In this document: one piece after another, positions 6,938-57,945 of the stretch | Layout: each line of letters begins with the position of its first letter | How positions within the stretch are numbered: the stretch's first letter is position 1 | Source: Meandrina meandrites | Taxonomy: Eukaryota; Cnidaria; Anthozoa; Scleractinia; Meandrinidae | Length of the DNA stretch: 64,000 bases | Direction: 5' to 3' | Assembly (NCBI GenBank): GCA_963693305.1 | Contig: OY855907.1 | Location: 34,776,301 to 34,840,300, forward strand | The notes under the pieces: model-generated | The model's database searches: none | What the model saw: the letters and a program-made list of their open reading frames with translations, nothing else | Told to the model about the DNA's origin: nothing | Made by a program: the position numbers and the translations under genes

Positions 6938-9208
6938 TTACTCAGTCAATACGAGAGCAGCTACCATCAGCAAAGCCATGACTAGGAAACAAAACCCGTT
7001 CAAACCAACACGGAGAAACAGAGGATAAATGGAGTTAAATATGGCGGCTCCAAATAAAGTGCAAAGCGTTTCCAGAGTTGCAACGGCAGCGAATAATGCG
7101 CCTGAAGAGGAAAAATAGTCTGATTGTTATCAAATCTGTTCTGTGTCGAAGAGTGCTTTGGATTTGGTTCTTTAAAATATTTGGCAGAATTCCTGTCTGC
7201 TCACTAATCGAGAGGTATGGCCATAATGAGCTAAGCTAAGCTAAGAGGGTGGCAAAGTGGTGGTGGGGGGGCGTCTTGATCCCATTTCACGCACAACTTT
7301 TAACCAAATTCACGTGTAGCATATACTTAAAACAAAATATTCACGAATCCCGCTTATTTTCTTGCTATTTTCACGCGTCACGGTCTAATTTTTTCCCTTA
7401 TCACGCGACACGCATAAACCCTCTGCTACCCTCAGGTAAGCTAAGCTAAGCTAAGCTAAGCTAAGCTAAGCTAAGCTAAGCTAAGCTAAGCTAAGCTAAG
7501 CTAAGCTAAGCTAAGCTAAGCTAAGCTAAGCTAAGCTAAGCTAAGCTAAGCTAAGCTAAGCTAAGCTAAGCTAAGCTAATGAGTACATTTTTTCGTGGTC
7601 TGCGAGCACTCTTTTGGTTCACCGATTGTGCACCATGTTAGAACTCCTGCGGAAAACGTCGACCACCACCTAACTCCGGGCCATTATAGGCTTCTGGAAA
7701 TGCTCACTAAATGAGCAATATAAAAACTCGAAAAACCGGTTACTCTACCCTGTTCGTCTGGATCAACCATCTTGGACATCATGGCTCTGATGATTGGCGT
7801 TGGGATGCCACCAAGACAAGCTACAAAGGGAACTAACAGCACAACAGGTGATCGACATAGATTTTCTTCCTTACGATATTAATACATTGCCAAGCATGCA
7901 GTCAAATGCAGAGAATACAGATAACTATCAACACAAGAGAGTACTAGGGCCAAGTTCTTCAAAACACGATTAAGCTATGTTCAGTTAGGGGGAATGACCT
8001 TAATTTACTTCACAAATGACAACTTAAGATTCTTTCTCTCACGATATTATGTTCTTCATGGACTAGTACTCCTGGTAATATACTTTTAAATTTAACTTAC
8101 CAATGAAAAACGATGTTTTGTTTCTTACAAACGCCATCATGACCAATGAGCAAGTCACGGATACCATTCCTACTTGCATGAGAGCATGTTCTGATAAAAT
8201 CATCCGCAGAAATTTCAGTCCTAAAACGGCTCCAACAGCTTGAACGAAAAAGCTTGTTGCTAGGTAATAGCCAATTAGAATTGAGTTACAGCATAATGGC
8301 CGGTCTATAGCGTACAGTACAATAACGCTCCCAAAGCCAATTGAAGACACGATCATAAGACCAGAGGCTAGCATAAGTATGCACATGCGCCATCGCTCGC
8401 CAGAACGAGGGTTCGTGAAGATGTGTATAATAACCCGGATGTGATCCAGGCTGAAGACTTTTACATTAGAATTTTCCATTAAATGTTTCGCTCTTGATTC
8501 CGGAAGTTTCAAACCTACGTAAAACAACGCAAAAGTGTGAAGTGAAAGTATCATCAGATATGGCGCTTTGTAACCAGTCTTGTTTATTAGCCACCCACTA
8601 CTCAAGTGGCTCAACATGCCGCTAATAAAAGCGGTCGCTTCCAGGATTCCAAGACGAAAGGCACGCTGAGATTCCTCCGTAATGTCCGCCATATACGAGA
8701 ATACAGACAAAACCATCGTAGGAAAAAAGCCACAAATGCCATTAATAAACCCCGCTAAGAGTAACGTTTGAATTGGAAGGTTAAAATAGATAACCCATAA
8801 TATTATTGCCGACTCCATGGCACTGCCAAATATGGGCAGACCCATGACCCTTCGTCGTCCCGCTCGGTCGGACCAAGCTCCCAAAAACAGCGCAACCAAG
8901 AGTGACGGCGCGCTGGCGGAGAAGACTAGGCCGAGTTGCATGAACGATGCTTCTGATTGGACCTCCTTTTGTAGTTTTAATGTTTCTTCATTCCGCGCAG
9001 CTGGAATGGAATTGCAGTTGCTCAAACTTGCCGTTGTGTTGTAAATAATGCCTTTCTCTTCGGCTATTCTCCGATGAATGTACTGCTGAATAACTGGGAC
9101 GTGAAGAATTATGCCGAACGCATAACAAAATATCACCGGTTCTACAGTAATTTTGTTTACACAGCATTCTGGTTTGTCCTCCTCCAGAGAGTTAGAAGCC
9201 TCCGTCAT
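6938..9208 (-). CDS. SLC46 / proton-coupled folate transporter-like MFS protein
   Basis: Three exons on the minus strand: 9208-8101, 7865-7749 and 7101-6938, joining in frame to 462 codons plus stop. This matches the usual 450-500 residues of the SLC46 family (PCFT, SLC46A2, SLC46A3), 12-TM major-facilitator carriers of folates or related small molecules. The ATG at 9208 follows a purine-rich context (gaaATGa). The N-terminal half has a long extracellular loop with N-glycosylation sites (NTTAS) after TM1, the MFS loop 2-3 signature SDRAGRRR and a helix-rich core. Exon 2 carries the family-like GGIPTP..RAMMSK..DPDEQG segment, completed at the exon 2/3 junction by GALFA. Exon 3 ends VLTE-stop; a good donor (GTAAGT) overlaps that stop, so a further small exon is possible. 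Substrate not inferable. Confidence 0.85.
7231..7579 (+). repeat. CTAAG pentanucleotide microsatellite with an insertion
   Basis: About 29 perfect CTAAG units run from 7436 to 7579. A short array of the same unit lies at 7231-7245; the two are separated by ~190 bp of G-rich unrelated sequence. It lies in the intron between exons 2 and 3 of the SLC46-like gene. Confidence 0.95.
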
Positions 9209-9289
9209 TTCTCCGCAGTTAACTTGCAAGAAATCAACAACCTGAGAGATGGTTCAAGTCGTTTAAAGCACCAACAGTTAAAATGACAA

Positions 9290-23954: not shown

Positions 23955-24665
23955 TCAAAACACACAGAATCGGCCCTCCATTCGTTCGATTATTTCTTCA
24001 AGGATCCGACAATAATTAATGGGTTCGAGCAGATCACAGAGCTCTTCGTAATCTTGTTTCAATTCTGCCAAGCTGAAAGAACGGGCCTTGTGTATGCAAT
24101 CTGTTATGAGCCTCTCCAATTTGTATTCCTGAGCAAGAATTATCAAAATTAGCACTTGTTCCTTCTCCGGATTGGATTGCATTTGCTGTGGTAAAAAATC
24201 GGTAAAGTATTCCCGAATGTTCAAACGACCTGCACAAATGGAACCAGAGGCAGCCACAAGGAAGTCTTCGCACTTTTCAAGCAGAACCTCTATTTGATAT
24301 TCGTCGGCGAGTTTCAACAAGTAAAAACAGGTTTCGATCACAATTGGTCTCTCACCGAGAGAGTACACCATAAGGATCAACTCTTGAAATTCAACGTGCT
24401 TTTTGCCAGGAAGAGCGATTTCTGATTTTGTCTTTTCCAAAAAGTTCGACGAGAACATTTTGTCGAAGACGAGGGAGCAACGTGATAAAACCCACCGATG
24501 AACGTGGAACATTTGTTCCTCGACTACAAAGATCACATCGCTTGATGCCCACACTTTGGAGAAATCGACTGCGTAGAAAACGCCTTCTTTTTTCATCACA
24601 TCACGGGTAAGGTCTATGGCTTGTGGAGGATCTGTATTGGTGTCCGCTTTTTCTTCGCCGACCAT
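23955..24665 (-). CDS. BTB/POZ domain protein, intronless
   Basis: Single uninterrupted frame of 236 codons from the ATG at 24665 to the stop at 23955. The open frame extends 10 codons upstream only through a GTG, so this ATG is chosen. Residues ~30-130 form a BTB/POZ fold: the DVIFVVEEQMFHVHRWVLS strand-helix core, then SLVFDKMF, then the hydrophobic LLKLADEYQIEVLLEKCEDF helix pair. The C-terminal ~100 residues are helical (ILAQEYKLERLITDCI) and resemble the region after BTB in BTB-BACK proteins, but no Kelch or MATH domain follows. BTB proteins dimerise and many are Cullin-3 adaptors; the partner here is unknown. Lack of introns beside intron-rich neighbours suggests retroposition or a recently expanded family. 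Confidence 0.85.
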   Translation of the reverse strand: MVGEEKADTNTDPPQAIDLTRDVMKKEGVFYAVDFSKVWASSDVIFVVEEQMFHVHRWVLSRCSLVFDKMFSSNFLEKTKSEIALPGKKHVEFQELILMVYSLGERPIVIETCFYLLKLADEYQIEVLLEKCEDFLVAASGSICAGRLNIREYFTDFLPQQMQSNPEKEQVLILIILAQEYKLERLITDCIHKARSFSLAELKQDYEELCDLLEPINYCRILEEIIERMEGRFCVF

Positions 24666-24699
24666 TATTGTAATCAAAATAAACGCACTTTGCACTGTT

Positions 24700-25790
24700 A
24701 TTCGCCCGGCTTTTGTTGATGTTTTGGTTTGGTTGATCTAATTGGCATGCAACACGCATATTCGTGTTAGGACTTGTAAACATGTAAATGATTTGCTGCG
24801 CGTTTATTGGCTACGTTGACTGCGGTTCTCTGGTTCTGCTGCTCCGTTTATTGGCTCGTTTAACAATAACTTTTGCGTTTAGGGAAATTTTATGCCATTT
24901 CGGCCAAGTTAGCTGGTCGTTAATTGCATTTTCTTTTATTCAATTCGAAAGAAATATTAGATCTCTGATTAACAAAACAACATAATGGGTTTTGTATTCT
25001 GCTTTGGTCATATACTGCTGGTTACACAAGGATCTCTGTTTTTAAGTTGTTTCTGTTCACCTGAGCTAACTGAAGAGATTTCAACTTATTCATTTTAAAC
25101 TCGAAAATATTTAAAGAAAGTACGTATTTATTGGTTAAATCTGGCAGCTAGCCCTGTTGGATAAAAGTTTTATCATTTAGCTACTGATCTTTTCACAAGT
25201 TTCCGAATTCTTATTCATCTACGTAGCTTATTTGATTTAACTGCGTTAGCAACAAGCGTTCCTCGCACGATCGAGGGTCTTTTTATAACGTTGCAGGGCA
25301 AACTTAGATGAAAATATGAGTAGCTAAATTAACCTGCCTGATCAACCCAAGGGATTGTAAAACACATTGAAGTACAACTTCGCCAAAATAAACCCAGGAA
25401 GATTAACTAGCAGGCTGTTTTAATTGCTTTTGGAACGGACCATTTGCAAAGATGTTGAACAGAATCTAAACAATAAATGAAATTCAACAACAAGTTAAGG
25501 TTAACTATCGTTTTTAAAATAACAAACCTTTTAAATGAGTGTTTCAACTCTAATATGTTCGATTCTTCAACAGTGCACTGTTTTGCTTAAACAATACCCG
25601 AGAGATAACACGTGCTATTGGCTATTGTACCGGTAAAGCACATGGCTATCGTGATTATATAAAAGCAATGTACCCACACATTTCAGTGGCTTTTAATTTG
25701 GCTGAATAAACCGCAGCTGGGTGTTGGATGAACCGAAGAAAGGCTTCAAAATCTCGTTATCGGAGGCCTATGGGCATTTTGTCGGGACGA
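24700..25790. other. Intergenic stretch upstream of the BTB gene
   Basis: AT-rich sequence, no supported gene. The BTB promoter should lie just right of 24665; no clear core motif. Confidence 0.35.
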
Positions 25791-29659: not shown

Positions 29660-31105
29660 AGGTTATAGAATATTAATATTTGCACAGAACGACATCCTTT
29701 ATCAAAGACACGATACATTTCCTCATTAATCTTGACCCGCTTGGACAGTTACCTGGTAACACCATACTTTTCACACTCGATGTTGACGCTTGTCGGCACT
29801 TCCTCGACACCCGCGACCGCTCTACGTCCACCATACGCACAGAGGCCCTTTGCAACCTCCTCAGAATGATTCTCAACATGAACATTTTCGATGTCAACAA
29901 CAACTATTACATCCAAAAGCACGGCACAGCCATGGGAACACGCATGGCTCCATCGTGCGCGAATCTATTCCTCGCTAAATTCGAGACAGACGCACTCCTG
30001 CATGCGCCACACCAGCCACATAAGTGGTGGCGTTTCATTGCAGACATTTTCATGATATGGACCCACACAGAAAACGACCTACTTAACTTCATCTCTTACC
30101 TCAACAACCTTCATCCCACTATCAAATTCACTTTGTCACATTCATCTACATCTATCTCTTTTCTTGACGTACAGGTCTCTTTCAACCGGTTTGGTATAGT
30201 TGAGTCAGATCTCTATACTAAACCTACAGACAAACATCAGTACCTCCATGTCACCCCGTACGCACCAAACGAGCCATTCCATTCAGCCTCGCCCTTAGAC
30301 TACGACACATATGCTTTTCTGACGAGACTTTTACATTACGAACTAATGAACTTATCCAATACCTTTATGACTACTACAATCGCTCATTCCTCAAACACGA
30401 GATCCAGCGCGTTCATGCTATCACATGCAACGAAACACTCAAACCCAGTCAGGCCACATCCAACCAACCCAGTCGCGTTCCTCTTGTCATCACATACAAC
30501 CCTTCCAGTATCTTCTATCATACAAAAACACTTTAGTATTCTATCTTCTTCACCACGTTGCACCAACGTATTTACATTTGTACCTCTTGTTGCTTTTCGA
30601 CGGACTGACAACCTTAGTGACATTTGAGTTAAATTGAAATTACGGACTGTCACACAAACTAACCTCTCCAAGGGATCCTTTAGATGCGGCAACAACTGCA
30701 TCACTTGCCACTACAACACCGACGGCCGCACTTACTACACTTTTTCTGCCACTGGGGAAACTATACTTATCCCTGATCAGATAGACTGTAACTCCAAAAA
30801 CCTCATCTACATAGTACACTGTCAACGTTGCAACAAACGATACATAGGCGAGACTAAAAGACGACTCAAAGACCGTTTTAATGAACACCGACGACCAGTA
30901 GACAGACCCATCCCCACCTCCAGGCCTACTGCAATTTCAGACGGTTTTCTTTCCGACGATCATAGGCCTAGCGACATAGAACTTATCCCACTAGAAATCA
31001 TGCATTTCATCTCGTGACGGTATACGTAAAGCTAGGGAAGCGTATCTTATCGAAAGGGGTGAAACCCTTGAAACCAAGGGTATAAACAAATGGGAAGAAA
31101 TGTAA
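29660..31105 (+). pseudogene. Decayed Penelope-like element: reverse transcriptase plus GIY-YIG endonuclease
   Basis: The first frame (29680 to ~30320) reads as the RT palm/thumb of a Penelope-like retroelement: FTLDVDACRHF (diverged motif A), QKHGTAMGTRMAPSCANLF (motif B), then RFIADIFMIW where the catalytic motif C normally reads YIDD; here the first Asp is Ala, so the RT should be inactive. The frame then shifts several times. A later frame (30634-31016) carries a Cys-rich linker (CGNNCITCHY) and the GIY-YIG endonuclease (IYIVHCQRCNKRYIGET..RLKDRFNEH); a further shift near 31005 leads to a C-terminus ending at 31105. The 5' part with the first RT motifs is missing. The RT-then-GIY-YIG order is diagnostic of Penelope-like elements. 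Confidence 0.85.
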
Positions 31106-36034: not shown

Positions 36035-39000
36035 ATGGTGTACAACAGACGAGACCTGAAGGTGATCTCGATCATTCAGATTGTGATGACTGTCATCTTT
36101 TTCGCGCTTGCCATGGTGGAGCGATTTCAAGTGCGTTTCATGTTTTCAAGCTTCTCGTTTGCGCCATGTTGGACAGCCGCCCTTGTAAGTACTGTACACT
36201 GAGATGTTAATTTCGATAGAATACTGTGTCTTCTCCCTTATTCAATGTTATAGTTGAAACGAGCTTGCTTATTGTCGCTGCGAAACTAGATTAGGTTCGT
36301 ATCGATGCGTTATCCATATTGGACCAAATTTGCCTTGATATTATCATCAGCTCACCGGCCTTAGCCATCGAAAGAATATATATATTTTTTCTGTAATCTG
36401 CATGTGTTGCATTCTAACATGAAACATTTTGAAGAGTGTGCACTTTAACCACGAACCTGCATAGGTTTCTTTGGGAGGAGGGGGACATTAGGGATTGCTG
36501 AACACCGCATTACCGCAAAAATATTCGACGGATACCGCAACACCGCAATAGTAAGTCTGTATAGCTGGTGGGTTCGTTGATGCGAGGGCAAAAATTGAGG
36601 CAAAAACAATCGGTGATCGTGGAAACAATGGAATGGCTTTAAAATGGGTGTTAAAACAGTCAGATTGTAGACTAAAATGTGTGATATACGAAGGTTGTTT
36701 CAGGCTGCTTCCGAAACGAACCAAAAACATCCTCGGAGACCCAGGGGCAGTTAGTCGGGGCAAAAATCGTAGCTGCGAAAGTTTTCTATAAAAGTAAAAG
36801 AGCCCCTGGGAAACGAGTCTCTCCAGACCATTTCCAAGCGACTCTGCAAATGCTGGCTCCTAATTGAGCAAAAAAATCCTTTGTATTATTTTGCCGATAC
36901 GATTTTTGCCCAGTTTACTTCGTTTTGCCCCGACTAACTGCCCCAGGGTCTCCGAGGATGGACCAAAAACGGCTAATAATGGTTATACAGACTATCGTTG
37001 ACCAAAACGCCATGAACTGAACGCATCCCGCAGGTTTCGTAAATACCACAATACCACAATTCAAGATTAAAATAGCCGAAATACCGCATGAAAAATTGGC
37101 CAATACCGCAAACCGGACCAACAACCAAGTCACGCCTAAAACACAGCTTACTAGTGCGCTCTACGAAGGAAATAATTGCGTCTATCGTCCTGAAAGATAA
37201 ACTTCACTGTCACTTCATTTCAGTTTAATTGGATCAGTTTTTTTCTCTCAGTGAAAAGTTGCCAGGCGTTTCTCATCCTGTTAATCTTTATTTTTGTTCT
37301 TTTAACCAAGGCGTTACTAGTTGGTATCATGGGACTGGCTTTGTCCGACACGTCTGAACAATCACTGAGTTTGGTAAGGCATAACGTATATTATCCCCAT
37401 CTTTCTCGATAAATCAAATACACATACATATTGTTTTTCTCCAAGCAGTCTGCTAAATTCATAAACATGCTTAATGTATCTTCAACATGCCGAGAAACAC
37501 AAAACAGCGCAACACAGCAACAAGAACATTGCATTGCACTGCACTGCACTGCACGGCACAGAACAGAACAGAACAGCACGGCACGGCACGGCACGGCACA
37601 GCAAAACGAGGCACAATGCAGCACAGCACAGCTGACGACAGCAAAGCATGGCACGGCATGAAACGGCACGGAATAAAGCACTACACTGCACTGCACTGCA
37701 CTGCACTGCACTACACAGCACAACCCATAGCAAAGCATTGCGCCCACAGGACTGCAAGGCCGCACAACACAGTACCACATGGCATTGTACAACACGGCAT
37801 GGCGCTGCACAGCAGAACAGCACAGCACAGCCAAGCATGGTATGGCACGGCATATAGCACTGCACTGCACTGCACCGCACTGCACTGCACTGCACTGCAC
37901 TGTACTGCACTGCACTGCACTGCACTGCACATCACAGCCCAGCGCAGTACAGCACAGCGCAGCATAGCACAGCACAGCATAGCAAAGCATTGCCCCCACA
38001 GCATTACACGGCATACAGCACAGTACACCACAGCACAGCACGGCATAGCAGAACAACGCAGCACAGCCAAGCACGGCACGGCACGGCATACAGCACTGCA
38101 CTGCACTCTACAGTTCAGCACAGCTCAGCACCGCATCACAGGGATCCAATACAAGCGGTGTGACTGTATGTCCGAAGGATATGAGAATATCGACAGGGTC
38201 TTTTTTATAATCGTAAAAATAATGCGAGTAATGTCTACATGTAACGTCAAAATATACGTACATTTACGACAACTGTTTCATTTCGTCGACTCTACGATTC
38301 AAAATGGCGGAATTGAGCTATTTGAATGGTTTTGCGTTGACAGTTTCTCCTGGTTACTAAAAAAGAAATAATAGATAGATAGATATACCTTTGTTTTGAG
38401 CTTACATGTAGACATAACAGGGAATATTTTTACGATACCCTATTTTTGTGATACCCTGTCAATATTATTTTAGATTTCTATATTTTCCAAACATACAGTC
38501 ACAACGCTAGCACATCATACTGCAGTGCAGTGCAAAACAACACAGAAAAGTCCCTATACTGCAAACAGCCGCATTTTTTGTGAACACGTTCGAGCGGTCT
38601 TCGAACGCGAAGTCTGGAGCCAATGTCAAAACTGAGAGTGAGACTGGAGACGTTGAGAACTATGAAATAAATAATGCTTGTTTCGTTAGAGATTTTATCA
38701 TCAAGGGTATCAAATTTAAGATATGGGTTGAGCTATCAAGAGATTTTTGCCCACTTGGCGACATTAATTGGCCTCCTGGTCGGAACGAATTCGTTGTATG
38801 GAAGGCCGACAGTCGTTTTTTCTCTGGTGACGATCGGCGCTTCGCGCTTTCGATCGATACGCGACTGTTAACGATTTTTGAGAAAAAAAGGACTCTTTTG
38901 CAGTCTAAACGTTCCCTATACCCACTCACTTTCTTTCGCTCTCTTTCTTTTAGATTTATGTCCTAAAATCAGTGAGCGTAGCATCTGCCGCAGTATCAGC

Positions 39001-45545: not shown

Positions 45546-46882
45546 AAGAAAAAAATTGGTTCGGCGGTTTTCACTATGTTTGCAAGGAAAGTAGGGAAAT
45601 TTCTAAATCTTGTTGTGAATCTAACGTGATTGGCTCCTTGACAGTATGACGTTTGATATAGCCCTTGACGTCATAATCTTTCGTTGGCAATTATTTCTTG
45701 GGATTGATCACCTCGATCACTCTGCCCATTAACTGTCAACATTCTAGCCGCTAATTCGCTTATAACCAGTACTAAGAAATAAGCTAAATGGAACACTTAA
45801 GCTAACATCACGAAGACATTACGACCTTAATTTTTTTTTTGGCTAAAAATGCATTATTTCCAGATTTCTGCCAAAAGATCACAACTTCTAAATAAGGCAC
45901 CGCAATGTGATTTTTAAGTGAAATGTGCGAATTCCATGACGTAGTTAACACTGTAAAAGCCACTCCTTAGATTGACTTACGTATATCAAACGTATATCAT
46001 AACGTTCGTCGCTCATATGAAACTTACTTCCGAGGGCGAGAGGGCATGATGATTTACTAAATTTTTCACTTTCAAGTTTTAAATTACACTGGGTATTATT
46101 TAGCTCGTTATCAGAACGACTTGTTTTGCAGTCAACGGAGAAATCAAATATTGCGAAAACATTACGGTATTTTTAATGTAAAACTTCACCAACTGAAAAC
46201 GAAAATATATATGTACGGCATTGAATCGTTGGTCGCCGTTTTAGCGAACGAATGGACGATATGTAAGGCACTGATGTACTGCGGAGAAAGGCCAGGAACA
46301 GACAGGAGTGGAGGAACTTTGTCCATGCCTTAAGCGCTGACAGTAAGTAAAGATTTTACTTAAATCTTCAGCAGGGAATTGTCGATTATTTATCAACGGA
46401 AAGATATTCTTCATTGAACTAGCACAAGGGACAGCATCTCTCTGCCTAAAATTTACTGAACGCCAAGACTGCGTGTCTATTGAACTGTTCTGCCCGCCAG
46501 TGATTGCTGATTTGGAATTGGAAAGGCATCATTTTTTTGTGAACGTTACCAAGTACATAGTTAAACATGAACAACACAACTCCATCGTCGTTTGAACAAG
46601 ACAGTAGTTTGTCAAACGTTGGCGTCAAAGCAGCCTCACTCTTTATTTTCATTCTCGTTGGTATCTACAGCAACGGACGCGTTATTTACACAGTGCTACT
46701 AGCCGATACTCTTCGTCCAGTTTTGAACCTTTTTGTAGCAAGTCTCAGCTTTGCGGACTTGGCCAGTTGCCTTATTGTAATGCCATTTGTCTTTTTTTCC
46801 CTGGTCTCCGGTGAATGGTTATTTGGAAGCATTTTCTGTACAATACATGCCTTGCTGTGTACCTACTTTTTCAACGTCGCGT
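45546..46882. repeat. Source half of a tandem segmental duplication (GPCR 5' region)
   Basis: This block, covering ~1 kb upstream of the GPCR ATG and its first ~315 bp, is repeated at 49193-50545, offset ~3.65 kb. Long collinear matches include 'gggaaatttctaaat', 'agcccttgacgtcat', 'ccatgacgtagttaacac' and the shared ATG region. Confidence 0.85.
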
Positions 46883-47889
46883 TCCTTAGTATAGCTTCTA
46901 TGGTGTACGAAAGATACCAAGCCATCTACCACAAACGTTTCCCTAGTTTGTCAAACCGACACACTATTATTTTTCTGTGCTTCATCTGGGTTTTCCCGAT
47001 TCCGTTCACTGTGTGTACGTCTCGTCAAGAATTTGCTTACGTTAAACATGCTGGACTATGTTACAACGCTGCTGAAAACTGGAATGCTGCTTCCATCATC
47101 AATCTGCTTGTAAAACCTGCTGGTTTACTTCTCATCCTGTTCTCATTTTGGAAAATCTTTGCTTTCCTTCTTTCTCTTCGACGCCGAGTCAGCCCAGGGC
47201 CCCTTTCCAACGAGGAAAAGTTAGCGTTGACCGCTTTTGTGCAGTCGGCTTTGACGTCGATCGTGTTTGTACTGGTATACTTGATAACGACTGCGCCTAT
47301 CGCGATCTTGGTCATTGTCAACAAGCGAAGAAGAGGCGCTGGAAAAAGCGCCAGCACAGAAGAACTTGGTAGTGCCTTTCTCTGGATGTACTGGCTTCAA
47401 TGCGCCACCAAACCCATCATCTACGTCCTGCGAAGCAAGAGATGCACGAGTTGTCTATGCCAATGGCACTGCACTGAGATGGCGAACGAGAGCACCTCGA
47501 GTCGCTTCAACAGAAGCCCGTCTCACGTCTATGAAGTGCGTGAAGACAGCTTACAAAACAGTTTCTCGGGGATAACTGGTGGGAGGCTCCCAGCCCTTCA
47601 TAGCACAAATGATGAATTCCTCGATCTTTGCCGGATCTCCATTGAGCTGGTGCCTGTGACGGGTGTAACCCGAAGTGTTCACGATCAAGACCAAACAGCC
47701 GGAAAAAATGTGGCGAATGATGCCCGAAGTGTTCCCGAAAAAGGCCAAACAGCTGGGGAAATTGCTGATTGGTCGACACACGACCATTCCGTTTGTTTTC
47801 AAAATGCCATCGAACATTCAGTTGTTTTCATCGAGGACTTGGAATCCTACATTGACGAAAACGAAGAGGTGAATTCGTACCATGATTAA
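46567..47889 (+). CDS. Class A (rhodopsin-like) orphan GPCR, intronless
   Basis: One 440-codon frame with seven hydrophobic segments. N-terminal MNNTT has a glycosylation site. TM1 contains SNGRVIY, TM2 SFADLAS (conserved Asp 2.50), TM3 starts at the conserved Cys of SIFCTIHAL and ends in YERY (E/DRY), TM4 has the conserved Trp (IWVFPIPF), TM7 ends TKPIIY, a variant of NPxxY. TM6 (TSIVFVLVYLITTAP) lacks the usual CWxP. A Cys cluster after TM7 (CTSCLC) could be palmitoylated; the ~150-residue acidic C-tail is long. Ligand unknown; amine/melatonin-like receptors are the nearest impression only. The stop at 47887-47889 is followed in frame by 50 more open codons, so the tail may be longer or recently truncated. 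A damaged copy lies at 50248. Confidence 0.9.
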   Translation: MNNTTPSSFEQDSSLSNVGVKAASLFIFILVGIYSNGRVIYTVLLADTLRPVLNLFVASLSFADLASCLIVMPFVFFSLVSGEWLFGSIFCTIHALLCTYFFNVAFLSIASMVYERYQAIYHKRFPSLSNRHTIIFLCFIWVFPIPFTVCTSRQEFAYVKHAGLCYNAAENWNAASIINLLVKPAGLLLILFSFWKIFAFLLSLRRRVSPGPLSNEEKLALTAFVQSALTSIVFVLVYLITTAPIAILVIVNKRRRGAGKSASTEELGSAFLWMYWLQCATKPIIYVLRSKRCTSCLCQWHCTEMANESTSSRFNRSPSHVYEVREDSLQNSFSGITGGRLPALHSTNDEFLDLCRISIELVPVTGVTRSVHDQDQTAGKNVANDARSVPEKGQTAGEIADWSTHDHSVCFQNAIEHSVVFIEDLESYIDENEEVNSYHD

Positions 47890-52860: not shown

Positions 52861-52865
52861 ACAGT

Positions 52866-53030
52866 TGTTGAAGACCTAAATGTAATAACTGACCTTAAAT
52901 GTAATAAACTCCTAAATGTAATAACATTTGGCCTTTAATGTAATAAACTCCTAAATGTAATAACATTTGGCCTTAAATTTAATAACACCTAAGTGTGACA
53001 ACATTTGGACTTAAATGAGATGGTTTATAC
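52866..53030 (+). repeat. Left terminal inverted repeat of the Ginger-like transposon
   Basis: Pairs with 57718-57882. Internal direct repeats made of 'aaatgtaataa' motifs with alternating spacers could serve as multiple transposase-binding sites (inference). Confidence 0.88.
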
Positions 53031-53978
53031 TCACGTCATCATTGACGTCATCAAAGGCGTCATTAATCAACTCACTGTTATTGCATAAACCACGTGATCT
53101 GTTGCACCATCTGTCATCTCATTAAAAGGGGTCTTTTATCGCAACGAGTAACATGTGTTTTCGGGTTTGTCACCTGACTGATGACGTCATTGCACTCAGT
53201 TATAGCGGAGCTCTGCAGCGGCCCGAATCTAAGGGCTACAGAGCGGAACTTGGCGGCCATACTCCAGAAATATGTCAACGTTAAGATTATCGTCAGCTTA
53301 TATCCTATTTGATATTGGGCATCCATGTTATGGCCAATTGACAGTTGTCAAAAAGGTATTCGCTGACCAGTATCACATGACTATTTCACGGGCTTACGTA
53401 TTTTTTTATTTTGACCGCTGATTAGGTAATTGTTCTCCACTGGATCGCGGGCTCAAGTCCTATTTTTAATCTGTCTATGGTCTCTAAGTTCAGATTTAAA
53501 TTAAAAATAAAACGGGAAGCACTGCTTTTAGGCTTGGCTAAATCTATCAAGCATTGGAGTGACATTTTATGGTTTCATTTTCGCATGATGAGATATCCTG
53601 GGTCTCAACTGGGCAAATTTCTTATTGTAATTATATATGACTTTATTAATTTTAGTTTATCAATTTTGAACTCAAGGCTATCAAGGGTATAAAATTTATA
53701 ACAGCTAACATGCATCAACGGAGGTAATTTTCTAAACAAATTATGTATTGAAACAACATCAACATTTAAACATTAACAGTTCTGTCCATTTCTTTGCAGT
53801 GAATGGTTACTCTTTTGTCTCTTTTCCTCTTCAGCTTTGTCAAAAAGTCAGTATTTGTTACTTTTCTCTAGACACAACTAACACTAACAAAAAAAGTAAA
53901 AAGTTTGTAACGATACAACATCAGTGTTTAAACATTAACAGTTCTGTTGACTTTGCTTCATCGAAAGATCACCATGAG

Positions 53979-56555
53979 TTACTTTTTTTTCCAAAAAATT
54001 CTTTTGATGACACACCAATCGTATCCGTCTTTCCTAATCTCCAACAAGGCATTGGCCCATTTTGGATCGGAAATGATGCTTTTTAATTCCATGATCAGAC
54101 CGCTTAAGGTACCATATTTCTTGATAAGGCTACGGACACTTATAACAAAAGATTGCACTCCGCCAGAGATATAAACCCTCGGCAACATTCGAGTTAGCCT
54201 TTGCGTCACCGCCCTAAACCGTGTACTGACTCCACATAACGATTGGTATGAATGGCACGCGTTACCGGCAAATAGAGCGGCCGATGATATCAATACCATT
54301 TGGAAGATTTTTTCTAAAAGTTCATTGGGCAGGTTTTCGATGCAACAATCTCTATTGGATCCAGACGCCAATGAGCCAACATCCTCATCAGGAACAAACT
54401 GAAGCGCTATTTGTTCCTCTCCACCCTCAATTATCTGCAAGGCTGTCTCGTTTGGCTGATCACTTTCCTCAACTTCAACCACAACATCTCCCAAGTCATC
54501 CGCACCCTCTTGTTGTTCAATTTCTTCATCACAGTCATCATCATTAACCGTATCACCCATGTCAATGTTTCCTTCAGTTCTACTCGCATATTCCTCCGTG
54601 ATGTCTTCTAGTACCTCCTCACCATTGTCGTGGTCGCTCACAACTGGTTCCAAGGCCACAAAATGTTCCCCTTGATTTTCTGCAAAATGTCCAAGGTACA
54701 CAGTGGCCGTTGCAATACTTGCTGACGGGCTGAACACATGTTGCCCACCAGCTCCCAGGGAAGATACTATTTGAACGTCAATGTTATATAAGTTCGCGGC
54801 CGCATACAGTGTTAGCTGATCCCCATAGGCCCCATCTTGTGACATATGATTTGTATAGTTGCTCCAGGAAGCAAACTCATTATCTGCCAAATGCTCCAAA
54901 AGAGGAAAACCTTCGTTATCGTAGGGGTTGCTTTCTAAGTAATCAACTATTTCTTCCCTCATAGTTTCGGCAGATCTGAAAATCCCTAGCTTCTGAAGCT
55001 GGTGTGAAAGTGCACTGAATTGGCAGTTACCATCTCCTGGTGGGTTATATGCTATTTTATAGCCTTGATCTTCAATAGCCTCGACGTAGTCGTCTTTTCT
55101 CATAGCTATGTGATACTTTTTATAGTGCTGATTTTTTTTCCTTTTTGACAGCTTTGCTACTTTTTGTTTTTGTTTTTCGCGCTGTAGGGTAAGGCTAGTG
55201 ACGTCATCTACAGGGACCCATTTCTTTTCTTTCTTTCCCGTTAGTGGTGAAGTATATGAAACCTTATAGGTATGTAACTGAATGTTTCTTTCTTCTACAC
55301 GAGCCTCAGTTATATGTCGCTTATTAAATGATCTTCCTCTTAGACGCAAATAAACTGTTTCTCCAACTCCGTAAACAGAGGGCGGATTCAGGCGAAGCTG
55401 CGTTCGCTGCGCACGCTTATCACACCTCTTGGTCGCTTTTTGTGCCTGCTTTCGCACTTTAGAAGCTTGCCGGGAACGTAGTTTCCGGTCATTTTCTGTT
55501 GGGCGAATTTTTACAGGGCTAGGGAGACATTCCTCTTCTAAGCCGCTTTCTCGGAGATTATTACATTTCCGTGCAAAATAAATTTCAAATGGTGTTTTGT
55601 GAGCAATTACTTCTTTGGGGTCGTTATTTAGAATCCTTTGGTAAAGAGGAATTTGTTTTGCCCAGTTGACACCGTCCTGACCCATTTTACTAAGGTCGTA
55701 CTCTATCTTAGATCTCAGTGACCTGTGACAACGTTCAACCTTGCCTTGCGACTGGGGGTGCCGAGGGCGACTGTAAATCAATTTAATATCCATGCGCTCA
55801 CAAAGCTTTTTCACGGCTTTTTTGAACTCTCCTCCTTGATCGCTTTGAACTATACGTGGTGCTCCATGCTCCATATAGATACTTTCCAGTTCTTTTGCAA
55901 CGTCCTTGCTTGATTTGTTTGTTAGAGGACGAAGCCAAACGAAACGACTAAAAACGTCAATCACTGTGAGCACGTATCTATACAACTTCCCATTCAACTT
56001 GACAGATCCTTTGCTTCCCATATCCATTAGATCTATTTGGTGTCTCATGTGAACATCTCTAGCTCTAACTGGTTTCAGTGTTGCCTTATTCATAAACTTG
56101 GCATTCCGACGATAGTGACTTTTGTCGGTGTTTAGAATATTTTGTATTTTATCACGACTTAGTCCAACAAAGTTGTCCCTGAGACCGCAAGCTAACTTCG
56201 CTGCGCCAGATCCTTTGGTTCGGTCAAATTCTCTTGCGACTATTTTGTTCACCTCTGAAGATCTTAACATTCGACGTCCATCAAAATAGAGCTCTTTTTT
56301 CCCTTTTTCTTCTTTGACTAATATCCTACCCTTGGCTCTCCAGAATCGAACAGCAGCTGTGCGCATTGCCGTTGTCCGTTCTTTCACTGGTGGCAGGGCT
56401 TTACCTTCAGCAAGATTAATCAGGGCTTCATAAATGTCGTCTGGTAACACAGAAGGCTTCCTGTTTCCTTGTGAATTTACACGATCATCTAAGGCCACGG
56501 AACTATGCAAAAATAATGCCAGTGCAACTGCTATAGCGAAAGCGGTATAACCCAT
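53979..56555 (-). CDS. Transposase: DD35E integrase + OTU cysteine protease + F-box-like domain
   Basis: One intact 858-codon frame from the ATG at 56555. Residues 1-22 are hydrophobic (signal-peptide-like). Residues ~95-165 form the helical region before the integrase core (KGSGAAKLA..GLSRDKIQNIL). The retroviral-type integrase core spans ~170-330, with catalytic D175 (HQIDLMDM), D239 (QSDQGGEF) and E274 (QGKVERCH), spaced 35 as in DD35E enzymes. Residues ~395-455 (YGVGETVYLRLRG.., WVPVDDV) resemble a GPY/F-like integrase C-terminal domain. A Lys-rich linker leads to an OTU domain (~497-637) with D508/C511 (GDGNCQFSAL) and H631 (GEHFVALEP). An acidic stretch (640-705) precedes an F-box-like segment (~739-785, ENLPNELLEKIF..LCGVSTRFR). 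The integrase resembles Ginger/KRBA2-type proteins; integrase-OTU fusions are known in this group, the F-box is the surprise. Deubiquitinase and SCF roles are inferred. Confidence 0.9.
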   Translation of the reverse strand: MGYTAFAIAVALALFLHSSVALDDRVNSQGNRKPSVLPDDIYEALINLAEGKALPPVKERTTAMRTAAVRFWRAKGRILVKEEKGKKELYFDGRRMLRSSEVNKIVAREFDRTKGSGAAKLACGLRDNFVGLSRDKIQNILNTDKSHYRRNAKFMNKATLKPVRARDVHMRHQIDLMDMGSKGSVKLNGKLYRYVLTVIDVFSRFVWLRPLTNKSSKDVAKELESIYMEHGAPRIVQSDQGGEFKKAVKKLCERMDIKLIYSRPRHPQSQGKVERCHRSLRSKIEYDLSKMGQDGVNWAKQIPLYQRILNNDPKEVIAHKTPFEIYFARKCNNLRESGLEEECLPSPVKIRPTENDRKLRSRQASKVRKQAQKATKRCDKRAQRTQLRLNPPSVYGVGETVYLRLRGRSFNKRHITEARVEERNIQLHTYKVSYTSPLTGKKEKKWVPVDDVTSLTLQREKQKQKVAKLSKRKKNQHYKKYHIAMRKDDYVEAIEDQGYKIAYNPPGDGNCQFSALSHQLQKLGIFRSAETMREEIVDYLESNPYDNEGFPLLEHLADNEFASWSNYTNHMSQDGAYGDQLTLYAAANLYNIDVQIVSSLGAGGQHVFSPSASIATATVYLGHFAENQGEHFVALEPVVSDHDNGEEVLEDITEEYASRTEGNIDMGDTVNDDDCDEEIEQQEGADDLGDVVVEVEESDQPNETALQIIEGGEEQIALQFVPDEDVGSLASGSNRDCCIENLPNELLEKIFQMVLISSAALFAGNACHSYQSLCGVSTRFRAVTQRLTRMLPRVYISGGVQSFVISVRSLIKKYGTLSGLIMELKSIISDPKWANALLEIRKDGYDWCVIKRIFWKKK

Positions 56556-57717
56556 GTTGAATCAAATAGAAAGACTCATTACTCTTAGCTAATTGAAGCA
56601 AAATGACGGTATTCAGCACGTGCGCTTTTTCAGACAGATATCAATTAAGTGTCTGGACATCCAATGTACATTTGTGATCTTTGAAGATAACCGGCGAGCG
56701 GCCTGCGATCGGCGAGTTGGTGTTCTTTTTTTAAATTATGAAAGTAATTTTCTTTAATAATATTTTCACAATGTTATTTTATATTAATTATAATTGCAAC
56801 TGTGGAACATTTGTTGAGTATGTCAGTGTTTGATCAAACTCAATTTGCTGTATTATCCGACTTGTTCATTTTAGTAAAACAAGGATTACTGATAAGGGGT
56901 GATAAGGATAACAAGGATAACATCTTATCTCCTGATATCGGAAACTAATTAACTCGCACTTTTGGTCCTTGGATAGCGCTCTTCATTTTGCATTTCAAGA
57001 CAGGCAAAATGTTTGTCGAGTTTGGATGCAGAGTCCAATTATGTTAATCAAACGCAATCATTAAAGCAGGAATTCTTTGTTAAACAGTTTTTCAAACCTA
57101 CAGTTTGGAAATGCTTCGTCATTTGCGAAATATTACCCCATGGGCATAATACAATTGATACTTTTAAAGAAAAAGCAGATTCACATCATCCTACTGGGAA
57201 AATTGTAAACGACCAAAATATCGGACTCTGAGACCTTTTTTTCCAGACACAGTTACGTATATAAAAAAAGGAGACAGATTGAAGGATCGAACTATCCAGA
57301 CTCGCTGTGTGTGGTCTGACAAGAGAGCCAAATCGAGATATAAAAGGCCTTTAAACCATGAAACGACAACAGCTATTTCAAATGCACCTTGCGTCGCGTC
57401 CTGGTGACGTTGTCATCACGGCATCCGGTACCACTGTGATAGTTTTGTCTGGAATTTTTGTTTGGACTGATCAGGTTTTGATTCAAGAACGGACTGATAA
57501 ATCGCTGGCGTCTTGAAAATATTTTCTGCGGAACTATATTGGTTAACAAGTAGATTTAGAAACAAAAACGTCACGCTATTACCAACCTATCGAAATTTGT
57601 TTGTATGAGAAGGAATTTAAAGGCTGGAATAAGGATTCCCGCTTACAGGGATTGTGTGTAGTGTCACGTGATTATTTTACTAAACAACGAGGTGGTTACG
57701 TCAATGATGACGTTTGT
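56556..57717. other. Noncoding right interior of the transposon
   Basis: Upstream region of the transposase gene; expected to contain its promoter. A short open frame (57013-57231) has no recognisable features. Confidence 0.45.
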
Positions 57718-57882
57718 GTAACGTTGTTTCATTTAAGTCCAAATGTTGTCACACTTTGGAGTTTATTACATTTAAGGCCAAATGTTATTACATTTAGGAG
57801 TTTATTACATTTAAGGCCAAATGTTATTACATTTAGGAGTTTATTACATTTAAGGTCAGTTATTACATTTAGGTCTTCAACA
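57718..57882 (-). repeat. Right terminal inverted repeat of the Ginger-like transposon
   Basis: Inverse of 52866-53030, with only a few differences, including the internal tandem units. The element ends at ..cttcaaca, followed by ACAGT. Confidence 0.88.
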
Positions 57883-57945
57883 ACAGTTACTTTCCACGGT
57901 CACCGAGGAAAGGCGAGCGCAATGAAGTTATTGGTTTACATTGTA

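Follow-up and report, generated by a model that had tools for sequence, protein, structure and literature searches.

A multi-copy Meandrina meandrites DNA transposon whose transposase joins an integrase core, a predicted OTU deubiquitinase and a putative F-box-like segment behind a candidate signal peptide

The window, the whole stretch of Meandrina meandrites DNA that we analysed, is 64 kb long, and its positions 52866-57882 are a DNA transposon of 5,017 bp. The element, its flanks and the parts of its protein are as follows.

52861..52865, no strand: left target-site duplication (TSD) ACAGT, from flank comparison
52866..52985, plus strand: left terminal inverted repeat (TIR; TGTTGAAGACC..., with 39-bp sub-repeats)
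53979..56555, minus strand: transposase gene, 858 codons in one frame without a stop
53982..54170, minus strand: residues 796-858, conserved tail (GxxSG, IIxSPxWxxAW, IxWK), from the lineage alignment
54171..54338, minus strand: residues 740-795, F-box-like segment (LPNELLEKIF...), from Pfam matches below cutoff and profile comparison
54357..54641, minus strand: residues 639-733, acidic linker, poorly conserved (12.6% mean pairwise identity)
54642..55088, minus strand: residues 490-638, OTU cysteine protease domain, from Pfam OTU and motifs in relatives
55581..56258, minus strand: residues 100-325, IS481-like region comprising an N-terminal domain and the DDE core, from NCBIfam IS481
55755..56039, minus strand: residues 173-267, Pfam rve integrase core (E 2.6e-14, above the Pfam cutoff)
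56490..56555, minus strand: residues 1-22, signal-peptide-like N-terminus (MGYTAFAIAVALALFLHSSVAL), from hydrophobicity and start context in ten lineages
57763..57882, plus strand: right TIR (...CTTCAACA)
57883..57887, no strand: right TSD ACAGT, from flank comparison

The termini of the transposon are inverted repeats reading TGTTGAAG..CTTCAACA or, in a longer form, TGTTGAAGACC...GGTCTTCAACA. Sub-repeats of 39 bp make up part of both TIRs, and the similarity of the left TIR extends weakly to about 53053. The insertion junctions read ..ACAGT/TGTTGAAG and CTTCAACA/ACAGT.., giving a perfect 5-bp duplication, and over their outermost 75 bp the TIRs show a single mismatch. A search of the window for the 23-bp TIR tip with up to 3 mismatches gave 2 matches versus 0.00 expected from shuffles. 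We rejected a 3-bp TSD for the window copy (CAG, with TTGTTG ends), because the TGTTG end is fixed by other copies. A sequence-only reading of this DNA had proposed an intact DNA transposon with a single gene, near-identical TIRs and a perfect 5-bp duplication; all of this is borne out, with one stop-free frame between the TIRs of a complete-looking element.

The transposase runs from the signal-peptide-like N-terminus through an N-terminal domain without H2C2, a DD35E integrase, a basic stretch and the OTU domain to the acidic linker, the F-box-like segment and finally the conserved tail. NCBIfam IS481 matches the protein with an E-value of 4.4e-30 and 105 bits, short of the equivalog cutoff, 224. 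DD35E integrases act by cutting DNA ends and joining them, and the triad here is D175, D239 and E274, with a spacing of 35 between D239 and E274 and with E274 lying just past the rve match. The nearest solved structure by sequence is PFV integrase for the integrase part (7.8e-14, residues 191-332) and OTUD3 for the OTU part, the latter a weak match (0.0084, residues 497-603). Pfam OTU matches above its cutoff at 2e-10 across residues 506-603, and the catalytic residues D508, C511 and H631 are present, within GDGNC (507-511) and EHF (630-632). Ubiquitin cleavage is the activity of OTU domains, and with the Pfam match and the Asp, Cys and His in place this one is a predicted deubiquitinase. The uninterrupted 858-codon frame, the triad, the two OTU motifs and LPNELL (residues 742-747) all lie where the sequence-only reading had put them, and its integrase-OTU fusion stands, both domains being past their Pfam cutoffs; the signal-peptide-like N-terminus, the copy number and the W837L change described below are additions to it. 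Two single-sequence structure predictions had mean pLDDT values of 41.8 and 35.2, too low for use; the first was the model consulted for a three-helix F-box fold.

Elsewhere in the window we noted frames for a BTB domain protein (23955-24737, minus strand), a rhodopsin-type 7TM receptor (46561-47889, plus strand) and an MFS transporter (8063-9253, minus strand). A 316-codon frame at 29677-30627 (plus strand) resembles, by eye, part of a reverse transcriptase and has no Pfam match at 1e-3, and at 37391-38371 more than 230 codons are open on both strands of what appears by eye to be a low-complexity repeat.

We searched the genome that contains the window (551 Mb, 56 contigs) and found at least 62 matches to the whole protein. 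Six are full-length stop-free copies with 98-100% identity, the window copy among them, and the remaining matches comprise broken and partial copies and diverged ones of about 30-64% identity. Residues 1-164 used as a query gave 65 matches. The 26-bp TIR tip occurs 39 times genome-wide with up to 2 mismatches (19 forward, 20 reverse) versus 0 in a backward control, and we therefore infer that the window subfamily has roughly twenty copies. All tallies skip L001-L008, which duplicate the window and loci L009-L015. The scanned viral and prokaryotic contigs held no relative of the element.

Both ends were identified at 20 loci including the window, where TSD lengths from 2 to 12 were tested and none above 7 bp was found. 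The duplication is 5 bp at 11 of these loci, 4 bp at three and 6 bp at two; three have none, and in the remaining one it lies within a GT repeat and could be either 5 or 7 bp long. The end pairs of L018 and L024, for which no TSD was found, are counted among the 20, as is that of L014, which is probably not one element because its TSD is missing and its TIRs differ at 39 of 75 positions. Outside this set, the split copy L026/L028 has a 5-bp TSD; it is one element spread over 11,877 bp, with a large insertion in which another frame is open for 498 codons. Diverged loci L029, L030, L032, L033 and L035 keep TGTTGA tips, L031 and L034 have no end within 4 mismatches of the window tip, and L036 has no pair of ends within that distance. 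At four loci (L022, L023, L024 and L025) the protein similarity begins only at about residue 132 and the frame changes near residue 475, a pattern that suggests the spread of a defective subtype.

Since the copies and their TIRs are nearly identical, the element has probably moved recently. Between near copies the overall pN/pS is 0.69-0.87, calculated from 2 to 6.5 synonymous changes, which is uninformative and not low, and for the C-terminal domain it is 1.64 (against L012) and 1.92 (against L013), the two pairs in which that domain has synonymous changes. These values show no sign of purifying selection, the copies being too alike for a useful estimate. The window copy itself carries a private change, W837L (54045-54047, minus strand): residue 837 is L here and W in all 19 other subfamily loci that hold this stretch, as well as in all five diverged lineages with the tail present. 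Residue 837 lies in the conserved tail, and the window copy, which differs there from all these others, may be impaired or less than fully working.

The diverged copies allowed us to compare seven lineages: the window subfamily, L029 (with L032 and L035), L030, L031, L033 (with L041, of the same lineage), L034 and L036. Of these, L030 and L036 are represented by broken copies, the L030 one without the end of the tail. The order integrase, OTU, C-terminal domain is the same in all seven. Both rve and OTU were matched in each of the four lineages scanned (E ≤ 1; matches were compared with cutoffs for the window protein only), the OTU histidine is present in 7/7 lineages, and the DGNC core in six, the exception being L030, a copy with stops, which reads GNGNC. 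With gaps counted and L036 left out, the mean pairwise identity across six lineages is 58.6% in the integrase, 53.3% in the OTU domain, 12.6% in the linker, 28.5% in the F-box-like segment and 29.2% in the tail. Judged by these identities, the C-terminal part is more constrained than the acidic linker next to it. Chance capture of a host exon in this copy alone, which on the sequence-only reading's own terms would have told against it, is excluded as the origin of the C-terminal part because the domain aligns, in the same order, in seven lineages. We also noted an intron of about 730 bp (GTAAGT...TAG) in L034, just upstream of the integrase core and before residue 169; L031 has a splice acceptor at the same place, and the window lineage reads through with no intron.

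The segment that the sequence-only reading had called F-box-like lies where it was placed, and F-box models are the top Pfam matches in two lineages, the window (0.02) and L034 (7e-4), but no model reaches its cutoff. The whole window protein had no Pfam F-box match at E-values up to 10; its C-terminus alone matched F-box at 0.02 and F-box-like at 0.021, both below cutoff. No Pfam F-box-clan match exceeds the gathering score in any of the seven lineages, the best being that of L034 with 19.7 bits versus a cutoff of 24.3. At E ≤ 1, F-box-like matches two lineages (window and L034) and F-box and F-box-like_2 one each, and five of the seven have no F-box match at this level; L031 and L030 have none even at an E-value of 10, and L036 has one only at 4.7. 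It is thus quite possible that the C-terminal domain is an unrelated helical transposase domain in which LPxE is coincidental. Comparison by hhalign of all seven lineages with four F-boxes of solved structures also fits this alternative, with a probability of just 11.4% over 37 columns, as does the origin of the signal, which comes mostly from the first helix. Furthermore, LP is missing in two of the seven lineages (L029 and L033 read LLNNDVLE in place of LPxE), and the C-terminal profile, like the L034 C-terminus alone, gave chance-level matches in the PDB and retrieved no F-box chain. Against this alternative, F-box models come top in two lineages, none of the seven reversed control sequences matches F-box, and the hhalign comparison of all seven pairs first the LP helix and then the VC-rFr segment with their F-box counterparts, as the order in true F-boxes would require. 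The five lineages that keep LPxE, which were picked for it, gave a score of 22.2 (probability 42.6%, first helix only) versus a maximum of 14.3 among 100 column shuffles of the same five selected rows. In our judgement F-box ancestry of the C-terminal segment is somewhat probable, and working Skp1 binding by this putative F-box-like segment is doubtful.

The window protein starts MGYTAFAIAVALALFLHSSVALDD, and nine other lineages, in a division into ten made by eye, have different but similarly hydrophobic starts, for example MKSVLVLALFVCFIALSVATK (L042), MAKPIFCLILLSLVHFHSSSAAS (L034), MCTLLLIVALVCLFFVGLSPAAK (L033) and MFSNVYLLLLLLFCCNIPFGQGG (L036). The 11-residue hydropathy maximum of all ten lies in the top 0.3-1.9% of a background of 379 open ATG frames taken from other parts of the window. 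The hydrophobicity is kept at an N-terminal identity to the window protein of 9-29% (four lineages); signal peptides evolve in this way, their letters changing while their hydrophobicity is retained. Among 19 N-terminal stretches, 13 have an ATG and a hydrophobic segment (followed shortly by a stop in L038 and L053), two are incomplete (L040 and L045) and four lack a hydrophobic start (L046, L049, L050 and L051); the position of L049 suggests that it is the first exon of the L031 lineage. The charge after the hydrophobic segment is positive in L034 (+5), L033 and L042 (both +4) and L036 (+3) and negative in the window (-1), L048 (-2) and L052 (-4), and because it differs in this way among lineages it does not choose between secretion and a membrane anchor. 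The cleavage site was judged by eye only.

The hydrophobic N-terminus could also be an artefact, if the true first exon lay upstream and residues 1-18 were the pyrimidine-rich end of an intron. Codons 2-20 are indeed 51-74% pyrimidine, and a phase-2 YAG lies 47-62 nucleotides past the ATG in six of ten lineages (window, L029, L030, L034, L044 and L048), with others at nucleotides 23 and 68 in L052 and 83 in L033; real introns also occur elsewhere in the gene, in L034 and, as judged by the acceptor, in L031. However, the first 90 nucleotides of L036 contain no YAG in any phase, L042 has none in phase 2, and phase 2 is not favoured over the ten lineages, with 11 phase-2 and 11 phase-1 sites, and these facts weaken the intron explanation. 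The start context also argues against it, with an A at base -3 in 10 of the 11 scored ATGs (two of which, in L033 and L041, come from a single lineage) versus 32% of background frames, and with an in-frame stop 3-35 codons upstream in 11/11. Likewise, in a blastn comparison of the upstream regions of six sequences, similarity between lineages was confined to the terminal-repeat zone; the near-identical L029 and L032 showed additional matching further on. We have therefore mostly set the intron end aside as quite improbable, and most simply the N-terminal segment is a candidate for a true signal peptide or signal anchor.

Taken together, we hypothesize that the element is an autonomous, recently active cut-and-paste transposon, with an OTU domain predicted to deubiquitinate and an F-box-like part that is a diverged docking module, and we lean towards this combined reading. 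The integrase core would cut and join the TIRs, its cuts being staggered by about 5 bp. The OTU domain might deubiquitinate either the transposase itself or proteins where the element inserts, with the effect of letting the transposase survive or of steering repair; this agrees with Bao and colleagues, who proposed a role in transposition or repair for domains of this kind (PMC2836005). The F-box-like domain could serve as a diverged protein-docking module, possibly for Skp1, and the N-terminal signal peptide or anchor would hold the protein at the ER or nuclear envelope for part of its life. A bolder version, which we regard as very unlikely, is that the conserved signal sends the transposase to the ER membrane or nuclear envelope and that it reaches the chromosomes via or beside the ubiquitin machinery of ER-associated degradation, with the OTU domain stripping ubiquitin during extraction and the F-box-like domain engaging the ligase. 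We know of no description of a membrane-routed DNA transposase.

Ubiquitin- or SUMO-cutting domains are carried by Ginger1, Mutator and Helitron elements, and for the reason they are there PMC2836005, in the text available of it, gives only a proposal. A young multi-copy family with intact frames is a place to test why transposons carry deubiquitinase-type domains, and the same protein also holds a module that may dock a ubiquitin ligase. One would not expect an enzyme that cuts DNA to carry a secretory-type signal in lineage after lineage; should this signal work, a parasite of the nucleus would be sending its enzyme via the ER or nuclear envelope.

Fusions of an integrase with an OTU domain are already known, a C-terminal OTU having been described in Ginger1 (PMC2836005), as the sequence-only reading had noted for OTU fusions. 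Its Ginger-type label fared less well. The window protein has no match to one H2C2 spacing pattern before the DDE core and neither a GPY/F nor a YPYY motif, and none of the 20 two-ended loci has the 4-bp Ginger1 target duplication CCGG or CCGT/ACGG. We think it unlikely that the element is an ordinary, already described Ginger1 or Ginger2 element, an explanation that TGTNR ends and a C-terminal OTU, both also found in Ginger (PMC2836005), would favour, and against which stand the three motifs not found, the variable and mostly 5-bp TSDs and the best curated family match, which is the bacterial IS481. As described in the main text of Bao et al. 2010 (PMC2836005), Ginger1 has TGTNR ends, TIRs of 40-270 bp and a C-terminal OTU or Ulp1, and occurs in animals including hydra. 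The window element resembles it in the TGTNR ends, in TIRs of such a length and in having an integrase-type DDE transposase with an OTU domain C-terminal to it, and differs in the motifs, the target and the TSD length just given and in adding an F-box-like domain and a signal-peptide-like N-terminus; that main text mentions neither an F-box nor a signal peptide. With Ginger2/Tdd, in the account given there, it shares TGTNR ends (TGTTG in the window) and the absence of GPY/F and YPYY. Ginger2 differs from our element by its H2C2, its RTATAY targets and TSDs that in animals are 4 bp long, and no OTU is given for it in that text. Set against the Ginger2/Tdd rule of 4-bp TSDs, or 5 bp in TDD-4/5 (PMC2836005), our family has 4 bp at 3/20 loci and 5 bp at 11/20.

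Among open-access titles and abstract openings we found no description of a transposase combining integrase, OTU, F-box and signal peptide; OTU is named for Helentrons in PMC6431247, which in its available part mentions neither F-box nor signal peptide, and the main text of Kojima and Bao 2023 (PMC10045372) mentions none of OTU, F-box and signal peptide. Like IS481 and IS481EU as described in the latter text, the window element has TGT..ACA ends and lacks HHCC, but IS481EU is from parabasalids, with TSDs of about 4, 15 or 25 bp and TIRs mostly under 50 bp, and the TSDs of the window family are mostly 5 bp with none above 7. IS3EU and GingerRoot, in the same description (PMC10045372), are likewise eukaryotic and without HHCC, and GingerRoot ends are occasionally TG..CA, but theirs are usually TA..TA ends with 6-bp TSDs, whereas the window family has TGT..ACA ends and a 6-bp TSD at only 2/20 loci. 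The element is probably a member of the integrase/IS481-like DDE class.
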